Assembly (NCBI RefSeq): GCF_023586365.1
Contig: NZ_CP097759.1
Span: 62,001-126,000 of the forward strand
DNA from: Blochmannia endosymbiont of Camponotus sp.
GTDB taxonomy: Bacteria > Pseudomonadota > Gammaproteobacteria > Enterobacterales > Enterobacteriaceae
Direction: 5' to 3'
DNA length: 64,000 nt
This document shows positions 5,448 to 28,763 of the stretch, in pieces. The notes beneath the pieces were generated by a model. It saw nothing but the letters and a program-made list of their open reading frames with translations, did not search any database and was not told the origin of the DNA. The translations under genes were made by a program, and so were the position numbers. The number at the start of each line of letters is the position of its first letter. Positions within the stretch are counted from its first letter, which is position 1.

Positions 5448-6089
5448 TTATTGGTTTAATTTGTTGTCATTATTTCGAATTTTTAGTTCCTGGATGATTG
5501 CATTAAAACTTAATGATTTATGTTGTAATAGGACTAATAAATGATAAATTAAATCCGATGCTTCATTAATGAGTTCTTTTGTATTGTAGCAAGAAATTGC
5601 TGCAAGGGCTGTTTCTAGACCTTCTTCTCCAACTTTTTGAGCAATACGTTTGACGCCACTAGCATACAAACGAGATGTATAGGATGTATTAATGAGATGG
5701 GATGGTATATTTTTTTTTGAGGATATAATATTTTCTAATTGATGAAGAAAACTTAATTCTATTATCCCAGGATGGAAACAGCTACTAGTATTGTTGTGAC
5801 AAGTAGGTCCGTGAGGCAAAGCGAAAATTAATAACGCATCCTGATCACAATCTGAATACCAATTGATTAATTTTAATATATTTCCGGATTTTTCTCCTTT
5901 AGTCCATAATCTGTTTTTACTGCGTGAAAAAAAAGTAACATGCTTAGTTTGTTCTGTTTTTATCATTGATTCTTTATTCATATGTCCTAGCATCAATACT
6001 TCTCCTGATTCAGCATGTTGTATGATAGCGGGTATTAGACCGTGATTTTTAGTCCAATTTAATTGCTGATGCTGATTTTTAATTAGCAT
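5448..6089 (-). CDS. hisI: Phosphoribosyl-AMP cyclohydrolase / phosphoribosyl-ATP pyrophosphatase
   Basis: Bifunctional HisIE enzyme carrying steps 2 and 3 of histidine synthesis: PR-ATP to PR-AMP, then opening of the adenine ring. The N-terminal cyclohydrolase domain (about residues 1-115) shows the SDCDQDALL and [12 protein letters not shown] metal-binding motifs. The C-terminal MazG-like pyrophosphatase domain shows the [10 protein letters not shown] and [13 protein letters not shown] motifs. The 213-aa length is close to E. coli HisI (203 aa). It is the last gene of the his operon and its start overlaps the hisF end by 7 nt, indicating translational coupling. It contains an in-frame run of nine A. 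Confidence 0.96.
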
Positions 6090-6859
6090 AATCTAATTTT
6101 TATTCCTTCTTTATCTAAAAATTGTTTTAATTTATGAATGTCAATAATTTGGTTATGAAATACTGAAGCTGCTAACGCCCCGTCTACATCGGCATCACGA
6201 AAAGCTTCTAAGAAATGTTGATAAGTACCAGCTCCTCCAGAAGCTATAAGTGGTACTTTACAATGTTTTCTAATATTTCGTAATTGATCTAAATCATAAC
6301 CATTTTTCATTCCATCTTGATTCATCATGTTTAATACTATTTCTCCAGCTCCATATTCTTGTACTTTTTTAACCCAATCCAATGTTTGCCATGTTGTGAT
6401 TTTTGAACGAGCACTGTCCCCAGTATAGCATTTGACCTGATAAATTTTTTTTTTAGGATTATGCCAAGTATCGATGCTAACTACAACGCACTGTGTACCT
6501 AAATGGTCAGCTAATTCTTGGATTAGCATTGGGTTGATTAAAGCAGGAGAATTAATTGAAATTTTGTCTGCTCCAGATGCAAGAATTTGCTTAGCTTGCT
6601 TTAATGTGCTTATGCCTCCAGCGACACAGAATGGTATATTTATTACTTTAGCAACCTGAGAAATCCATCTCTTATTCACTACTTGATCATTAGGTGATGC
6701 TGTGATGTCATAAAATACTAACTCATCGGCTCCTGATTTTGCATATCTATTGGCTAAGTCTAAGATATCTCCTACAATTTTGTGGTCTTTAAATTGTACT
6801 CCTTTGATTACTTTGTTGTCAGCTACATCGAGACAAGGAATTATTCGTTTTGCCAACAT
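6083..6859 (-). CDS. hisF: Imidazole glycerol phosphate synthase, cyclase subunit
   Basis: A TIM-barrel cyclase that joins ammonia from HisH to PRFAR, forming imidazole glycerol phosphate and AICAR. The 258-aa length equals the family norm. The N-terminus [12 protein letters not shown] carries the catalytic Asp at residue 11, and the second catalytic Asp lies in the central [14 protein letters not shown] segment. Phosphate-binding loops (VAGGIS, IASGGAG) are present. It overlaps hisA by 19 nt and hisI by 7 nt. An in-frame 10-A tract (T10 on the plus strand at 6445-6454) makes it a candidate for transcriptional slippage. Its partner HisH is frameshifted in this genome, so HisF may depend partly on rescued HisH. 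Confidence 0.97.
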
Positions 6860-7581
6860 GATATAGCCTCATCGATAGTAAATGTATTTTCTAAAAAAGC
6901 ACGACCAATGATGATTCCTGCTACCCCAGAAGAACGTAATTTAGATATTTCTGTTAATTTATTAACACCTCCAGAGGATTGAAACGCTATTCGTGGCCAA
7001 GAATGGCATATTGATCGATATAAAGATATATTGCTGCCTAACAAAGTTCCATCTTTGGAGATATCTGTACAAATAACATGTTTTAAGCCTACAGTATAAT
7101 ATTCTTCTATTATTTGTTCTAATTGCAAATCAGTTTCTTTTTGCCATCCGTAAATAGCAACTTTTCGATTTTCTTCGGAGTAAACGTGTATATCTACCGC
7201 TAAAACTAAAGTATTTGGATCAAAATATTCAAACCATTTTTTTACTATCTTTGGTTGTGTAACTGCTATAGAACCTAATACTATACGTGTTGCTCCTGAT
7301 TCTAACAGAATTTCTACATCTGTAGCGTTACGTATACCTCCTCCTATTTGTATCTTCGATAGAGGAGTAGCTTCTTTTATTAATTGACTAATTAATAAAC
7401 TTTGTTTTTTTGATGGATTTTTTGCTCCATCTAGATCAACTAGGTGTATAATTTTTGCTCCTTGTTGTATGTATTTTTTCAATAATGATATAGGTTCTCC
7501 GTAATTAGTTTGCATACAATAAGATCCTTGATACAGTCTAACTATATTTCCGTTAATAATATCTAGTGCGGGAATAATCAC
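6841..7581 (-). CDS. hisA: Phosphoribosylformimino-5-aminoimidazole carboxamide ribotide isomerase
   Basis: Isomerises ProFAR to PRFAR, the fourth step of histidine synthesis. It is a TIM barrel related to HisF. The 246-aa length matches E. coli (245 aa). The N-terminus [19 protein letters not shown] has the catalytic Asp7, and the second half carries the [10 protein letters not shown] segment. It starts 3 nt after the end of hisH and overlaps hisF by 19 nt, which is the usual enterobacterial arrangement. Confidence 0.96.
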
Positions 7582-7584
7582 AAA

Positions 7585-8174
7585 TTATATCTCCAAAAAA
7601 TTTTTTACTAATTGTTGTCCAGGCATTCCTGATTTTTCTGGATGAAATTGTACACCAAAAAAATTTTTATATTTTATAACTGAACTAAATAATTGTCCGT
7701 AATTTGTTTGAGAAATTGTTACAGAACATATTTCTATGAAATAACTATGTGCAAAATAAAAATAATCATTCTCTTTTATACCATAAAATAAAAAATGTTT
7801 TTTAGGAATAGTAATAGTGTTCCATCCCATATGTGGCAGAGGAAAACCGTGGTATTGCATACGTTTAACAGGTGTATGAATAATGTTTAAAGTGTTTACA
7901 CCATTATTTTCAGAACTTATGGATCCAAATAACTGCATTCCTAAACAAATACCTAATATTGGTTTAGTACAATTTTGTATCAATGTAATTAGATTTTTTT
8001 TTTTAATTGTTTCATCGCGGATAAAGCAGCGCCTACTCCTGGTAAAAACAGTTTGTCCGCTTGAGATATAACATCAGCGCTGTCACTTATTATTGGATTG
8101 TGTCCTAGTCTATGCAGCATGGTTTTTACAGATAATAAATTAGAGCAGTTGGTGTCTATAATAACTATATTCAT
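7585..8174 (-). CDS. hisH: Imidazole glycerol phosphate synthase, glutaminase subunit, split by a poly(A) frameshift
   Basis: Supplies ammonia from glutamine to HisF. The frame is broken. Codons from 8174 to 7989 encode the N-terminus ([16 protein letters not shown] to KQLKKKI, then a stop). The rest, including the nucleophile motif GICLGMQ, the PHMGWN segment and FHPEKSG, continues in another frame to 7585. The break is at eleven consecutive A (T11 on the plus strand, 7994-8004); adding one A, or removing two, restores one frame that aligns end to end with E. coli HisH (196 aa). Both halves are well conserved, so the gene is probably functional through RNA polymerase slippage, as published for poly(A) tracts in Buchnera and Blochmannia. 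The start ATG overlaps the hisB stop (ATGA). Confidence 0.93.
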
Positions 8175-9241
8175 AGCAATGTTCCTTTAGAGCTTGGTAT
8201 GTTATTATTGTCTATGTAAATGGCTTGACGTAATGATCGCCCGAAAGATTTAAATAAACTCTCTGCTTTATGATGATCATTTTTGCCAGTTGCTTGTAAA
8301 TGCAAAGCACAACCCATTTTTGAAGATAATGAACGAAAAAAATGTTCTATCATTTCAGTGCTGAGATCTCCTATTTTTTGAAAAGTATAACTAGCTTCAT
8401 AGCAAAAGTATGTTCGCCCAGAAAGATCTAATACACATTGCGCAATACTTTCATCCATAGGTAAGGTAAACCCAAATCTTCCAATGCCACATTTGTTGCC
8501 TAATGCAGTGTTTAAAGCTTCTCCTAGTGTTAAAGCTGTATCTTCTACAGTATGATGATCATCTACATGTAAATCGCCTTTTGCTGTAATATTCATACAG
8601 AATCCAGCATGCACAGCTATTTGCTGTAACATATGATTGAAAAAATTAATTCCAGTATTAATGTAACTTTTATTATTTTGATCTAACCATATCGCGATAT
8701 CTATATTAGTTTCTTCGGTGATGCGATGAATATGCGCTGATCTGTGACGTTGCGTTAAATAGTTTTTAATTTTTTTCCAGCCAAAATCAGTACGATTATA
8801 TTGTATTCCTTGAATATCCATATTAGTTGCTAAAATCATATCAGTATTTCGATCTCCGATAACATAACTATTATATTTATTTAATTTGTTATCGATTAGC
8901 CAAGAATTTACTAATTCAGTTTTTGGTTTGCGACAACTACATTGTTCTTCAGGAACATGAGGGCAAATCAGTATTTGATTGAATTCAATACCTTGAGATT
9001 GAAATATTTGAATCATTAGATGATGTAGTGTATCAAATTTTTCTCTAGGAAATGAAGCACTTCCTAATCCATTTTGATTAGTAACTATAACAAATTCAAA
9101 GCCTATATTTTTCAATGCTATGAGAGCAGGAATCACATATGGTTCCAATGAGAATTTGTCTAACGAATCAATTTGAAAATTGTCTTTTGGTTCACTAATT
9201 AAGGTTCCATCACGATCTATAAATAAAACTTTATGATGCAT
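8171..9241 (-). CDS. hisB: Histidinol-phosphatase / imidazoleglycerol-phosphate dehydratase
   Basis: A bifunctional enzyme of steps 6 and 8. The N-terminal HAD phosphatase domain (about 1-165) has the nucleophile motif DRDGT with Asp9 and Asp11 and a zinc loop [14 protein letters not shown]. The C-terminal dehydratase domain carries the metal-binding [14 protein letters not shown] and the later [13 protein letters not shown]. The 356-aa length matches E. coli (355 aa). It lies 16 nt after hisC and overlaps hisH by 4 nt. No disruption is seen. Confidence 0.97.
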
Positions 9242-9257: not shown

Positions 9258-10334
9258 CTATATAGATAATGGTACAACATGTAATTTTTTTAAAACAGAA
9301 ATTACGTGTTTGCATTCATTATATGTGCCGACAGTGATACGCAAGCAATTAACTAATCCTGGTTGATTGCTTTGATCTCTTAAAACTATGCCTTGATGCA
9401 ATAATGTCTTAAAAACCTGATATTTTGGATTGAATTTAACCAACACATAATTAGCGTTACTATTAAATACTTTTTGAACACAAGAACATTGTTTTAAGCC
9501 TGTAATTAATATGTGTCGGTTTGTATTGATTGTAGCTATTCTATTTTGAGTGTATTGTATACTTGCAGGGGTTAGAGCTTGTTCTGCGATGTCAATTACT
9601 GGAGTAGACAATGGGTATGGTGCTATCACTTTTGCTAATAATTTAATAATTTCTGGATTAGCTAAAGTGAAGCCACACCGCAATCCTGCTAACGCGAAAG
9701 CTTTAGATAAAGTTCTTAAGATAACTAGATGAGGATACATTGATAGCCAACGTACTAGGCTTGCGTCCGGGCAAAAATCAATATATGCTTCATCGGTTAC
9801 TAATAACGCTCGATTTTGAATAATTTTTAATAACTTTTTTAAACTATTTAAATGAATAATATTACCAGTAGGGTTGTTTGGGTTACAAATATAAATTAAT
9901 TTAACATTGTTTAGTTGTGATTCAATGGATGCTAAATCAAGTTGCCAGTTTTTCTTTTTAGGTATAATCCGATAATTAATTCCTAAAATTTCTGCAGTAG
10001 TTTTGTACATACCGTATGTTGGTGGGCAAAATATAATAACGTCTTTTCCAGGATTACAAAAAACTTTCATTAATAATTCAATACTTTCATCGGCTCCTCT
10101 CGATACTAAAATTTGATCAGATTGAACTCCAGCATAATAAGCATAATTGTTGATCACTTCATGTGGTTGACAAGTAGGATATCTATGAATTTTTCTGTGA
10201 CGAAATTGATAGTCGGGAGCGATTGGAAATTCATTAGCGTTCAGCCATATGTTACCTGAATGTGTGAATTTTCTAGCAGATTGATAAGGTTTAAGAGTTA
10301 ATATATTATTCCTAGCCAAGTAACGAACGTTCAT
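9258..10334 (-). CDS. hisC: Histidinol-phosphate aminotransferase
   Basis: A PLP-dependent class II aminotransferase that converts imidazole acetol phosphate to histidinol phosphate with glutamate as donor. It is 358 aa (E. coli 356). The Schiff-base lysine lies in RTLSKAFALAGLRCG, and NPNNPTGN and DEAYIDF are the usual cofactor-binding motifs. Its start overlaps the hisD end by 23 nt. In reduced genomes it often also serves aromatic amino acid transamination, but nothing here shows that directly. Confidence 0.96.
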   Translation of the reverse strand: MNVRYLARNNILTLKPYQSARKFTHSGNIWLNANEFPIAPDYQFRHRKIHRYPTCQPHEVINNYAYYAGVQSDQILVSRGADESIELLMKVFCNPGKDVIIFCPPTYGMYKTTAEILGINYRIIPKKKNWQLDLASIESQLNNVKLIYICNPNNPTGNIIHLNSLKKLLKIIQNRALLVTDEAYIDFCPDASLVRWLSMYPHLVILRTLSKAFALAGLRCGFTLANPEIIKLLAKVIAPYPLSTPVIDIAEQALTPASIQYTQNRIATINTNRHILITGLKQCSCVQKVFNSNANYVLVKFNPKYQVFKTLLHQGIVLRDQSNQPGLVNCLRITVGTYNECKHVISVLKKLHVVPLSI

Positions 10335-11643
10335 TTTGTTCCTTGATATAATTTATACGATGTGTTATAGCATATTCATGAGCTTTTAATTGTTCGATTT
10401 GTGTTAATGTTGTAATGGTTGATGATAGCTGTAATAATCCATTTTGGGTTAATTGTTGTACTGACATTCTTTTTTGAAAATCTGTCACTCCTAGCCCAGA
10501 TGTGGTAACTGCGCGCCCGTATGTAGGTAAGACGTGATTAGGTCCACTTGCATAATCTCCAGCAGTTTCCGGAGACCAATTTCCAAGGAATATTGATCCA
10601 GCATTTATGATATAATGCAAATAATCTGATGCATTTTCAATTTGGATAATTAAATGCTCTGGAGCGTAGCTATTACTTATAGAAAAACATTCCATTAAAT
10701 TGTTAGTAATAATCATGCGACTGTTCAATAATACATTCTGAATTATATCATTGCGTGGTAGTATTTTTAATTGTTTATGTAACTCTTGTTTTGTTTGCTC
10801 TGCAAGGTGTGCATAGGGTGTTATAAGTATTATGTGTGAATCAGGTCCGTGCTCTGACTGTGACAAAAGGTCTGCTGCGATAAAAATAGGATTAGCCGTA
10901 TTGTCTGCAATAATTAATATTTCGGAAGGCCCAGCTAGCATATCAATAGCAGCTCCATTTGGAGTAAGGTTAATTTGTCGTTTTGCTTCGGTAACCCATA
11001 TATTACCTGGTCCAAATATCTTATCTACTTTCGGAATAGACTCAGTACCAAATCCCATAGCGGCTATAGCTTGACTACCTCCTACTTGATAAATTTCGTC
11101 GATACCGCAAAGTTGTGCGGTATATATAATTATGTCTGGAATTGGTGGGGGTGAACATAATATTACGCGTTTACATTTCGCAATACGAGCTGGGATACCT
11201 AACATCATTACTGTTGACAATAGTGGTGCAGTTCCTCCTGGTACATATAGCCCAACAATATTTAATGGCCGAATAATTTGTTGGCAATATACACCTGGAA
11301 AAGTTTCTACGATTACCTCTGAATAACATTGTGCTTGATGAAACCGTGTTATATTGGTCATGGCGGTATGTATTGCTTGTTTTATTTCATTAGACAAGTT
11401 ACGTCCCGAATTCATGATAATTTCCGTTGGAATTTGTAATTGTTTAATTTGTACGTTGTCAAAATCAAAATTAAATTTAAATAAAGCACGATCGCCTTCG
11501 TTATAAACTTTTGTGAGTATATTTTTAACATCTATATAAATATCGTTTAATTTATTATTTATTGGACGGGTAAGAAGTGTGTTTTGTTCAGATTTGGAAC
11601 AATCATGCCAATAAATAGATATAGGATGTTCATGAGAAATCAT
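10312..11643 (-). CDS. hisD: Histidinol dehydrogenase
   Basis: Catalyses the last two steps, histidinol to histidinal to histidine, with two NAD+ and a zinc ion. It is 443 aa (E. coli 434). Motifs include the YVPGG loop, the nucleotide-site segment KIFGPGNIWVTEAK, the zinc and catalytic region SQSEHGPDS, and FLGNWSPETAGDYASGPNHVLPT. It follows hisG with a 4-nt gap and overlaps hisC by 23 nt. The frame is intact along the whole length. Confidence 0.97.
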   Translation of the reverse strand: MISHEHPISIYWHDCSKSEQNTLLTRPINNKLNDIYIDVKNILTKVYNEGDRALFKFNFDFDNVQIKQLQIPTEIIMNSGRNLSNEIKQAIHTAMTNITRFHQAQCYSEVIVETFPGVYCQQIIRPLNIVGLYVPGGTAPLLSTVMMLGIPARIAKCKRVILCSPPPIPDIIIYTAQLCGIDEIYQVGGSQAIAAMGFGTESIPKVDKIFGPGNIWVTEAKRQINLTPNGAAIDMLAGPSEILIIADNTANPIFIAADLLSQSEHGPDSHIILITPYAHLAEQTKQELHKQLKILPRNDIIQNVLLNSRMIITNNLMECFSISNSYAPEHLIIQIENASDYLHYIINAGSIFLGNWSPETAGDYASGPNHVLPTYGRAVTTSGLGVTDFQKRMSVQQLTQNGLLQLSSTITTLTQIEQLKAHEYAITHRINYIKEQNERSLLG

Positions 11644-11647
11644 AATA

Positions 11648-12547
11648 TTATTCCATCATTTTTTCTATTGGTAATACTAAAATAGAACTAGCTCCAAGAT
11701 TTTTTAAATTTTCCATTGTTTCCCAAAATAATGTTTCATTACTTACCATGTATATTGCTACACGATGTTGATTGCCTGCTAATGGTAATACTGTTGGGCT
11801 TTCTGCTCCAGGCAGTAAATTAATAATTTCCTCTAGTTGTTCAGCAGGAGCATGCAGCATGATGTACTTAGACCCCCTGGCCTGGATTACTCCTTGAATA
11901 CGAATTATTAATTTGTTTATCAGTGATTGTTTTATGTTGGACAATTCTCCAGATCGTTGAATAAGACATGCTCTAGATCGATAGATTACTTCTACTTCGT
12001 GTAATCCATTAGCTTCTAATGTAGCTCCGGTAGACACTAGATCACAAATTGCATCTGCTAATCCAGCGCGTGGCGCTACTTCTACTGAACCATTTAACAA
12101 ACAAGATTTAAAATGAATACCTAATTTATCTAAATATTGTTTCAGAAGATGTGGGTATGAAGTGGCAATCCGTTTGTCTTGTAAGGATTTTGGACCGTTC
12201 CATGGCTCATCTATGGGTAAGGCCATAGATAGCCGACAATCTCCAAAATCTAATCGAAGTAACATAATGTAACAGGGATTATCTCCTTGCGATCGCCTCG
12301 TTAATAATGCTTCTTCTAATACATTTTCTCCGATAATACCTAAATCTACTATGCCGTCCATAACTAAACCAGGAATATCATCATCTCGTACTCTCATTAT
12401 ATCGATAGCCATGTTTTCCGCAAACGCTAGTAGACGTTGTTGTTGTAAATTAATTTTAATTCCACATTGTTCAAGAAGTTGTTGGGATTCTTTGCTCAAT
12501 CTTCCTGATTTTTGAATTGCTATTCGTAACCGTGATCTATCCAGCAT
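11648..12547 (-). CDS. hisG: ATP phosphoribosyltransferase
   Basis: The first and committed step, joining ATP and PRPP to PR-ATP, normally feedback-inhibited by histidine. It is 299 aa, the same as E. coli, in the long form with a C-terminal regulatory ACT-like domain (about 225-299). The N-terminus [21 protein letters not shown] aligns at the E. coli start, and AAGGT lies 8 nt before the ATG. The PRPP-binding region [14 protein letters not shown] is present. It is the first structural gene of the operon. Because the regulatory domain is kept, allosteric control may remain even though the leader attenuator has decayed. Confidence 0.97.
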
Positions 12548-14836: not shown

Positions 14837-15160
14837 ATGAGAGATAATGTTAATCAATCATTTTATGATGTATTAGAGTTTGTGCGTATATTCCGTCGTA
14901 AAAATAAACTGCAACGAGAAATTGTTGATAATGAAAAAAAAATTCGTGATAATCAAAAAAGAGTGTTATTGTTGGGTGATTTAAGTGATTATATTAAGTC
15001 TGAAACTTCTATAGAAGGGATACAAGTTATTATTGCTAATATGCGTAATGATTATGAAGATCGAGTGGATGAATATATTATAAAAAATGCAGAGTTATCA
15101 AAAGAACGTCGTGAGTTGTCAAAAAAATTAAAAAATTTTAAAGAATCTACAATTGATTAG
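14837..15160 (+). CDS. tmaR: PTS system regulator TmaR (YeeX family)
   Basis: A 107-aa coiled-coil protein nearly collinear with E. coli YeeX/TmaR (109 aa): [40 protein letters not shown] and [20 protein letters not shown] are diagnostic. In E. coli TmaR clusters at a cell pole and sequesters PTS enzyme I, tuning sugar uptake. Here it is plausible as a partner of the mannose PTS encoded at 33-36 kb, which is inference. An in-frame run of nine A is present near residue 35. The position next to sbcB and the his operon agrees with the E. coli map. Confidence 0.94.
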
Positions 15161-27314: not shown

Positions 27315-28763
27315 TTATTCTACTTGTAGAATGTGACTAATATTAATTACATCACACTTATTGTATATATCATTTTGTATCACAACCACTAATTCACCAG
27401 ATAGCAGAAGTCCTTTGTCGCGTAACAAATTACTAGCATACTTGGCGTCTATCACGTTATTCCCTATTCTATTAAAATAAATAGGAATAACTCCTTTGTA
27501 GAGAGTAACTATATTTAAAGTGCGTTTGTGTTGGGATAGCGCAAAAATAGGTAATTTTGAATTGATACGAGACATCAATAACGTAGTACTTTCAAATTCA
27601 GTCAAAGCAATAACAGCGCTTACTCCTGTTAGATGATTAGCAGTGTACATTGCCGATATAGCGATAGCTTCTTCGATATCATTAAATTTTTTTTTTTGGC
27701 TGATGTCTGATAAAAAATTGATGTTTGAATTTTTTTCGGCACCTAAACATACATTAGCCATAGCTGTTACAGTTTCAGATGGATATTGACCTGTAGCGGT
27801 TTCAGCGGATAACATAACTGCGTCAGTGCCATCCAATACTGCATTGGCTACGTCCATTACTTCTGCGCGAGTAGGCATAGAATTATAAATCATAGATTCC
27901 ATCATTTGAGTTGCGGTAATGACTGCGCGATTAAGAGCACGTGCTCTTTGTATTATTTTTTTTTGTACACCCACTAGTTCTGGTTCTCCAATTTCTACTC
28001 CTAAATCTCCTCGGGCTACCATGACTGCGTCTGATGCGTGGATGATATCGTCTATTGTTTCGTCGGATGCAACTACTTCTGCGCGTTCTATTTTAGAAAT
28101 AATTTTTGCATGACTGCCGGCATCGACAATTAATTTTCGTGCACAATTTAAATCTATACTGCTACGGGGAAATGATATCGCTAGGTAGTCAACTCCAATT
28201 TGAGCCGCGGTAATAATATCAATTTTGTCCTTGTCTGTTAAGACTTTTGCTGAAAGCCCCCCTCCTAATTTGTTTAAGCCTTTGTTGTTGTATAATATAC
28301 CTCCAATAATTACTTTAGTATATATTTTAGTATTATGGATTGTTACAACTTTTAACTGAATTCTTCCATCATCTAATAGAAGTAAATCCTCTGGGTGTAC
28401 GTCTTGCGCGAGTTCTTCGTAATCAACGCCTACGCATTTGTGATCACCTGTATTGTTGTTCGTCATCATGGCATTAATTAACAAGTTATCTCCAGATTTT
28501 AAATATATTTTGTTTCCTTGAAAAGTTGAGATACGGATTTTAGGTCCTTGTAAATCTCCGAGAATAGCAATGTATGTACTTAGTTTGGAGGCTATTTTCC
28601 GTACTTTTTCTGCTCGGACAAAGTGTTCTTGTGTTTTTCCATGAGAAAAATTTAGTCGTACGATATTTGCTCCTGAGATAATTATTTTTTCAAGGTTGTT
28701 ACCTTTATCTGTAGCAGGACCTAAAGTAGCGATAATTTTAGTTCTTCTCAATTGTTGAGACAT
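27315..28763 (-). CDS. pykA: Pyruvate kinase II
   Basis: Converts phosphoenolpyruvate and ADP to pyruvate and ATP, the last step of glycolysis. It is 482 aa (E. coli PykA 480), with the N-terminus [19 protein letters not shown], active-site blocks [30 protein letters not shown] and the loop [11 protein letters not shown]. The start SQQLRRTK resembles PykA, not PykF. An in-frame tract of eleven A (T11 on the plus strand, 27687-27697, encoding QKKKF) has the same length as the one that breaks hisH, so some transcripts are expected to be frameshifted. No second pyruvate kinase is in this window. Confidence 0.97.

Follow-up and report, generated by a model that had tools for sequence, protein, structure and literature searches.

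The question raised by the hisH locus of this Blochmannia endosymbiont of Camponotus is whether a gene whose two halves lie in different reading frames, joined at a run of eleven A residues, is dead or still yields its product. The stretch of DNA analysed here (the window) is 64,000 nucleotides long and represents bases 62001-126000 of a genome of 790,497 bp; its relevant features are collected in Table 1. The original prediction, according to which the two halves of hisH are in different frames and meet at eleven A (T11 on the plus strand, 7994-8004), was correct in its coordinates, and its claim that both halves keep their motifs was likewise confirmed, since GICLGMQ and FHPEKSG are found in the translation and the two halves jointly span the family profile. 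Called mechanically as an open reading frame, the C-terminal part comprises 132 amino acids (7585-7983) in a frame other than that of the N-terminal part, while at the junction the reading is TTA AAA AAA AAA, one further codon, and then the stop.

Table 1. Features of the hisH locus and its neighbours, in positions of the window
Feature	Position	Strand	Remarks
hisH, whole	7585-8174	minus	between hisB and hisA; split into two frames
hisH 5' part, 61 codons and stop	7989..8174	minus	HisH profile positions 1 to 57-59
A11 run	7994..8004	minus	junction of both frames; T11 on plus strand
Stop codon TAA for the unslipped reading	7989..7991	minus	starts two bases past the run
hisH 3' frame, open from run to stop	7585..8004	minus	holds Cys and His/Glu motifs
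Raised synonymous conservation, codons 57-71	7963..8006	minus	run and about ten codons; exploratory
hisA	6841..7581	minus	GTG start; three bases from hisH stop
hisF, partner subunit of HisH	6083..6859	minus	named by translation and profile scan
hisI(E)	5448..6089	minus	last gene of the cluster; named by reading translation
hisB	8171..9241	minus	directly upstream of hisH; named by reading translation
hisC, hisD, hisG	9258..12547	minus	named by reading translations

Matched to the NCBIfam HisH profile (TIGR01855), the N-terminal part covers positions 1-57 (54.6 bits) and the C-terminal part positions 68-197 (144.9 bits), i.e. the latter lies above and the former, taken alone, below the whole-protein cut-off of 105.4 bits. 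In a six-frame search the matches extend to positions 1-59 and 56-197 of 198 (the match for the N-terminal part of the distant genome G003 contains stops, because it extends past the run). In each of the 14 Blochmannia genomes that make up the genus sample a single hisH locus exceeds the family cut-off and no hit elsewhere scores more than 27.6 bits, and in all 14 the motifs GICLGMQ and FHPEKS are identical, as judged by eye.

Within this sample the relatives carry species names that are tentative: G004 is taken as B. pennsylvanicus, G002 as B. floridanus, G012 as B. vafer, G005 as B. turneri and G006 as B. obliquus. On protein comparison (95.0% identity over 12,098 aligned residues) the window's genome is a close relative of, though not identical to, G004, which has 791,654 bp. 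The exact A11 run, the same frame shift and a stop two bases later were found in ten of the 14 genomes (G000, G001, G003, G004, G007, G008, G009, G010, G011 and G013), the early stop being TAA or TAG in every one, and the break is missing from those taken as B. floridanus, B. vafer, B. turneri and B. obliquus. It had been suggested that, were the DNA to come from a species other than B. pennsylvanicus, the broken state would prove to be conserved, and this orthologous break in ten genomes bears the suggestion out. A tree built from 35 genes of the window parts the four intact genomes from the ten split ones with support of 100, and the ten include G003, at only about 75% protein identity. The simplest history is a single origin of the break in the ancestor of the ten, but it may also have arisen repeatedly; a section heading in PMC4389277 describes B. 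obliquus as the earliest diverging Blochmannia lineage sequenced. In an outgroup check, 78 of 80 loci fetched together with a neighbouring hisC yielded both halves of hisH, which share one frame in 77 of these 78 (one of the 77 is B. floridanus itself; in the exception, L070, the C-terminal half is matched only in part), from which it follows that intact hisH is the ancestral state. In the genome taken as B. floridanus (locus L098) hisH has an A11 at the same place and yet is in frame, so that run length by itself is no guide to frame state.

The length of the run may nevertheless be compared with that of other homopolymers. An alignment of nine close genomes contains 63 sites where an A or T run reaches 9 or more in one or several genomes. 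The original prediction had proposed comparing tract length among relatives, and at hisH it is 11 in every split genome, i.e. in all nine of these and in G003; among the other 62 runs of at least 9 the only one of constant length is an A9, and of those of at least 10 none is constant (0 of 18). That A9, at 14934-14942, is the same length in all nine close genomes and is the sole other such run in the region. Non-coding runs, i.e. those outside the listed conserved open reading frames, are the fairer neutral yardstick, because selection holds coding runs in frame: none of the 15 non-coding runs of at least 9 keeps its length, and all 15 have indels that are not multiples of three in the run or within 6 columns of it. 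When the four closest genomes are considered separately, runs of at least 8 have kept their length in 0 of 28 non-coding cases as against 29 of 59 coding ones, while 10 of 28 coding runs of at least 9 are unchanged, implying that among these four the hisH run is unusual beside non-coding runs but not beside other coding ones. Were hisH dead, its run should show altered lengths. The absence of any synonymous interruption within the run is weakly unusual (0.06 unconditionally, 0.13 given the window's codons).

Two further observations concern coding runs elsewhere. Nine of at least 8 carry indels that are not multiples of three in some genome, though by eye these lie mostly near gene ends or are poorly aligned. 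A second T11 run, at 27687-27697 within a gene of 482 amino acids (27315-28763), preserves the frame throughout the nine close genomes, measuring 12 in G004 via a substitution and 8 in G011 via a 3-base deletion, and could serve as a natural in-frame control for slippage.

Selection on the two halves, a comparison of dN/dS likewise proposed in the original prediction, was estimated using a codon model written for the analysis and applied to 56 codons before the run and 135 after it. The second half proves to be as constrained as the first: over the ten split genomes omega is 0.102 for the N-terminal part and 0.101 for the C-terminal part (2dlnL against omega = 1 of 114.6 and 241.1 respectively), over nine genomes 0.094 and 0.102, and over the five closest genomes 0.109 and 0.100 (2dlnL 33.8 and 70.7). 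Controls were drawn from 47 conserved open reading frames of the same region, two of which represent the halves of hisH; of the remaining 45, stops or gaps in coverage eliminated 7, and 28 of the 38 usable ones were fitted, a later batch being restricted to frames of up to 400 amino acids. These 28 gave omega values of 0.010 to 0.295 with a median near 0.09, ten of them exceeding 0.102. For the four intact genomes the values (0.018 and 0.058) were set aside, as their trees were very long (18.9 and 7.1). The C-terminal frame stays open for 135-137 codons in all 14 genomes. Judged by these substitution patterns, both halves of hisH are under strong purifying selection, like an ordinary constrained gene, with neither the relaxed selection nor the further decay by which a pseudogene would be recognised.

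Taken together, selection on the second half, the unchanged run and the break common to ten genomes make rescue much likelier than a dead gene; the split is real and almost certainly functional, and the earlier argument against a dead gene has held up on these same three counts. It is very likely that hisH is a working gene with an old break in its A11 run, and that, by analogy with the published case, its full-length product arises mainly through slippage of RNA polymerase. The unslipped reading would end two bases past the run; polymerase slipping on A11 would cause a fraction of the mRNAs to gain or lose A residues; and those mRNAs that thereby acquired the right frame would give full-length HisH, the glutaminase subunit of imidazole glycerol phosphate synthase. 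That the full-length protein is made thus seems probable from the pattern of constraint, and polymerase slippage is its presumptive main route by analogy. Of the original prediction that slippage rescues hisH, the rescue is therefore upheld by selection, run length and the ten genomes, while the identification of the polymerase as the slipping machine is one by analogy. A passage in PMC1088944 counts against slippage in hisH, suggesting that AT-rich species that tolerate many A9 runs may have evolved its suppression.

An alternative is that the mRNA retains its A11 unaltered and the frame is restored by the ribosome, which would shift or slide on the run. There is an A AAA AAA slippery heptamer in frame within the hisH run, and the part of PMC4363877 concerned with sliding on poly(A) describes an E. 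coli cell-free system in which a three-lysine A11 insert slides robustly, and A9 or A10 inserts little; hisH resembles this closely in having exactly 11 A and three lysines, and is unlike it in that the reported work used cell-free reporters and gave a truncated product. Against this, no stimulatory RNA structure was detected in 141 bases of the window (z-score 0.15), folding of the ten genomes together showed compensatory changes in none of 12 pairs, and no conserved Shine-Dalgarno-like element was seen upstream of the run by eye in the 14-genome alignment. The lack of a stable downstream structure and of covariation makes a classical stimulated -1 site improbable, and in addition altered transcripts are reported, in the relevant part of PMC5009743, for the related published case. 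We therefore consider it unlikely that the ribosome is responsible and rank polymerase slippage first, with ribosome sliding as a possible contributor.

Far less probable is that hisH is a pseudogene and that HisF uses free ammonia. The frame is after all broken, and the accessible text of PMC12779916 (2025) calls hisH a pseudogene in several lineages; the break it refers to is assumed here to be the A11 break. Histidine synthesis without hisH at high ammonia, which that paper regards as likely to be feasible, is possible, yet it leaves unexplained the constraint on HisH, seen in both parts with the five closest genomes included, as well as the motifs unchanged throughout the genus sample and a run that stays constant while non-coding runs vary. 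There is thus a conflict in print, as far as these sources go, between rescue by slippage (Blochmannia papers of 2010 and 2015 and a review of 2016) and the pseudogene call of 2025, and the signature of selection across the ten genomes favours rescue.

It is harder still to believe that HisH consists of two polypeptides, the second made from an internal start: the window does have a TTG at 7983, but its next in-frame ATG falls past the catalytic Cys. An independent start at 7983 was rejected as a candidate, because 4 of the 10 split genomes have TTG at this codon and 6 have TTA. Error-prone though A11 runs are, a homopolymer mistake in assembly or sequencing is scarcely conceivable, given that ten genomes, one of them taken as B. 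pennsylvanicus, agree in both the A11 and the break.

The sequence just past the run shows extra nucleotide conservation, which is the sole new lead to have emerged here and, on sequence comparison, a weak one. The signals concerned are post hoc, having been found after the alignment had been viewed: across nine genomes the synonymous sites of codons 57-71 are more conserved than their codon types predict (z 3.02 for the best 15-codon window), a value reached by 3 of 38 control genes and by 3.5% of 5000 equally long segments drawn at random. Masking the run lowers the maximum there to 2.75 for 15 codons and gives 2.05 for 20 codons, while narrower windows (8 and 10 codons) place the highest peak in hisH at the end of the gene, beside hisA. 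A further signal found in this way is that nine of nine genomes retain CTA as the Leu codon following the run; in the control genes 3 of 142 such codons are retained. Retention of the early stop is not remarkable, since 365 of 727 comparable Leu columns retain the needed codon ending. A second peak of synonymous conservation, at 7591-7620 (codons 186-195), adjoins the GTG start of hisA and is probably the translation start region of that gene. It is conceivable, though rather doubtful, that the run and its flank form a maintained recoding element that sets the dose of HisH, with polymerase slippage and ribosome sliding both feeding the product; the features kept at nucleotide level would then be the A11, the stop that follows after two bases and some ten flanking codons.

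hisH appears to stand alone in the region in being split. The remaining seven his genes in the cluster could be aligned across the ten genomes without stops and at nearly full length. A first scan of the region revealed no split gene, but was blind to genes already split in the window and lacked a positive control; in a second, which used 100 usable open reading frames of 114 (from G002 and G012) to search the relatives, only hisH was found to be split. In that scan's own control, the two queries jointly recovered hisH in nine of the ten split genomes (8 and 6 when used singly) and missed it in G009, implying that its sensitivity is incomplete. Since G004 carries the hisH break, the other his genes are unbroken and neither scan revealed a second split gene, the slippage-rescued histidine gene of B. 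pennsylvanicus is one that we take to be hisH.

The phenomenon as such is already known and so, by elimination, is the hisH locus. In the review PMC5009743, as far as the portion consulted extends, transcriptional slippage is described as rescuing a B. pennsylvanicus histidine biosynthesis gene that carries a frameshift at poly(A) (Tamas et al. 2008), and 12-50% corrected transcripts are given across an ant-symbiont histidine gene and aphid-symbiont cell-wall genes, with Buchnera aphidicola and Blochmannia pennsylvanicus named. Whether the locus would be the same as the published one had been left conditional in the original prediction; by elimination it is, G004 having its hisH break at A11, but in a different genome of the same group (790,497 as against 791,654 bp, 95.0% identity) and here studied at the DNA level. 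In common with slippage-rescued genes, hisH has its break in a run of at least 9 A, a constrained part after the break, and a run kept beyond neutral runs. Two practical points follow: a pseudogene call made at a poly(A) run of an AT-rich symbiont may be mistaken, and models of the ant symbiosis should retain glutamine-dependent histidine synthesis unless shown otherwise. Wernegreen, Kauppinen and Degnan reportedly found in 2010 that ancient frameshifts in Blochmannia homopolymers are kept by selection, and hisH is like these in its long-kept break, conserved run and constrained protein; in comparison with them, the ten genomes described here reach as far as the distant G003.
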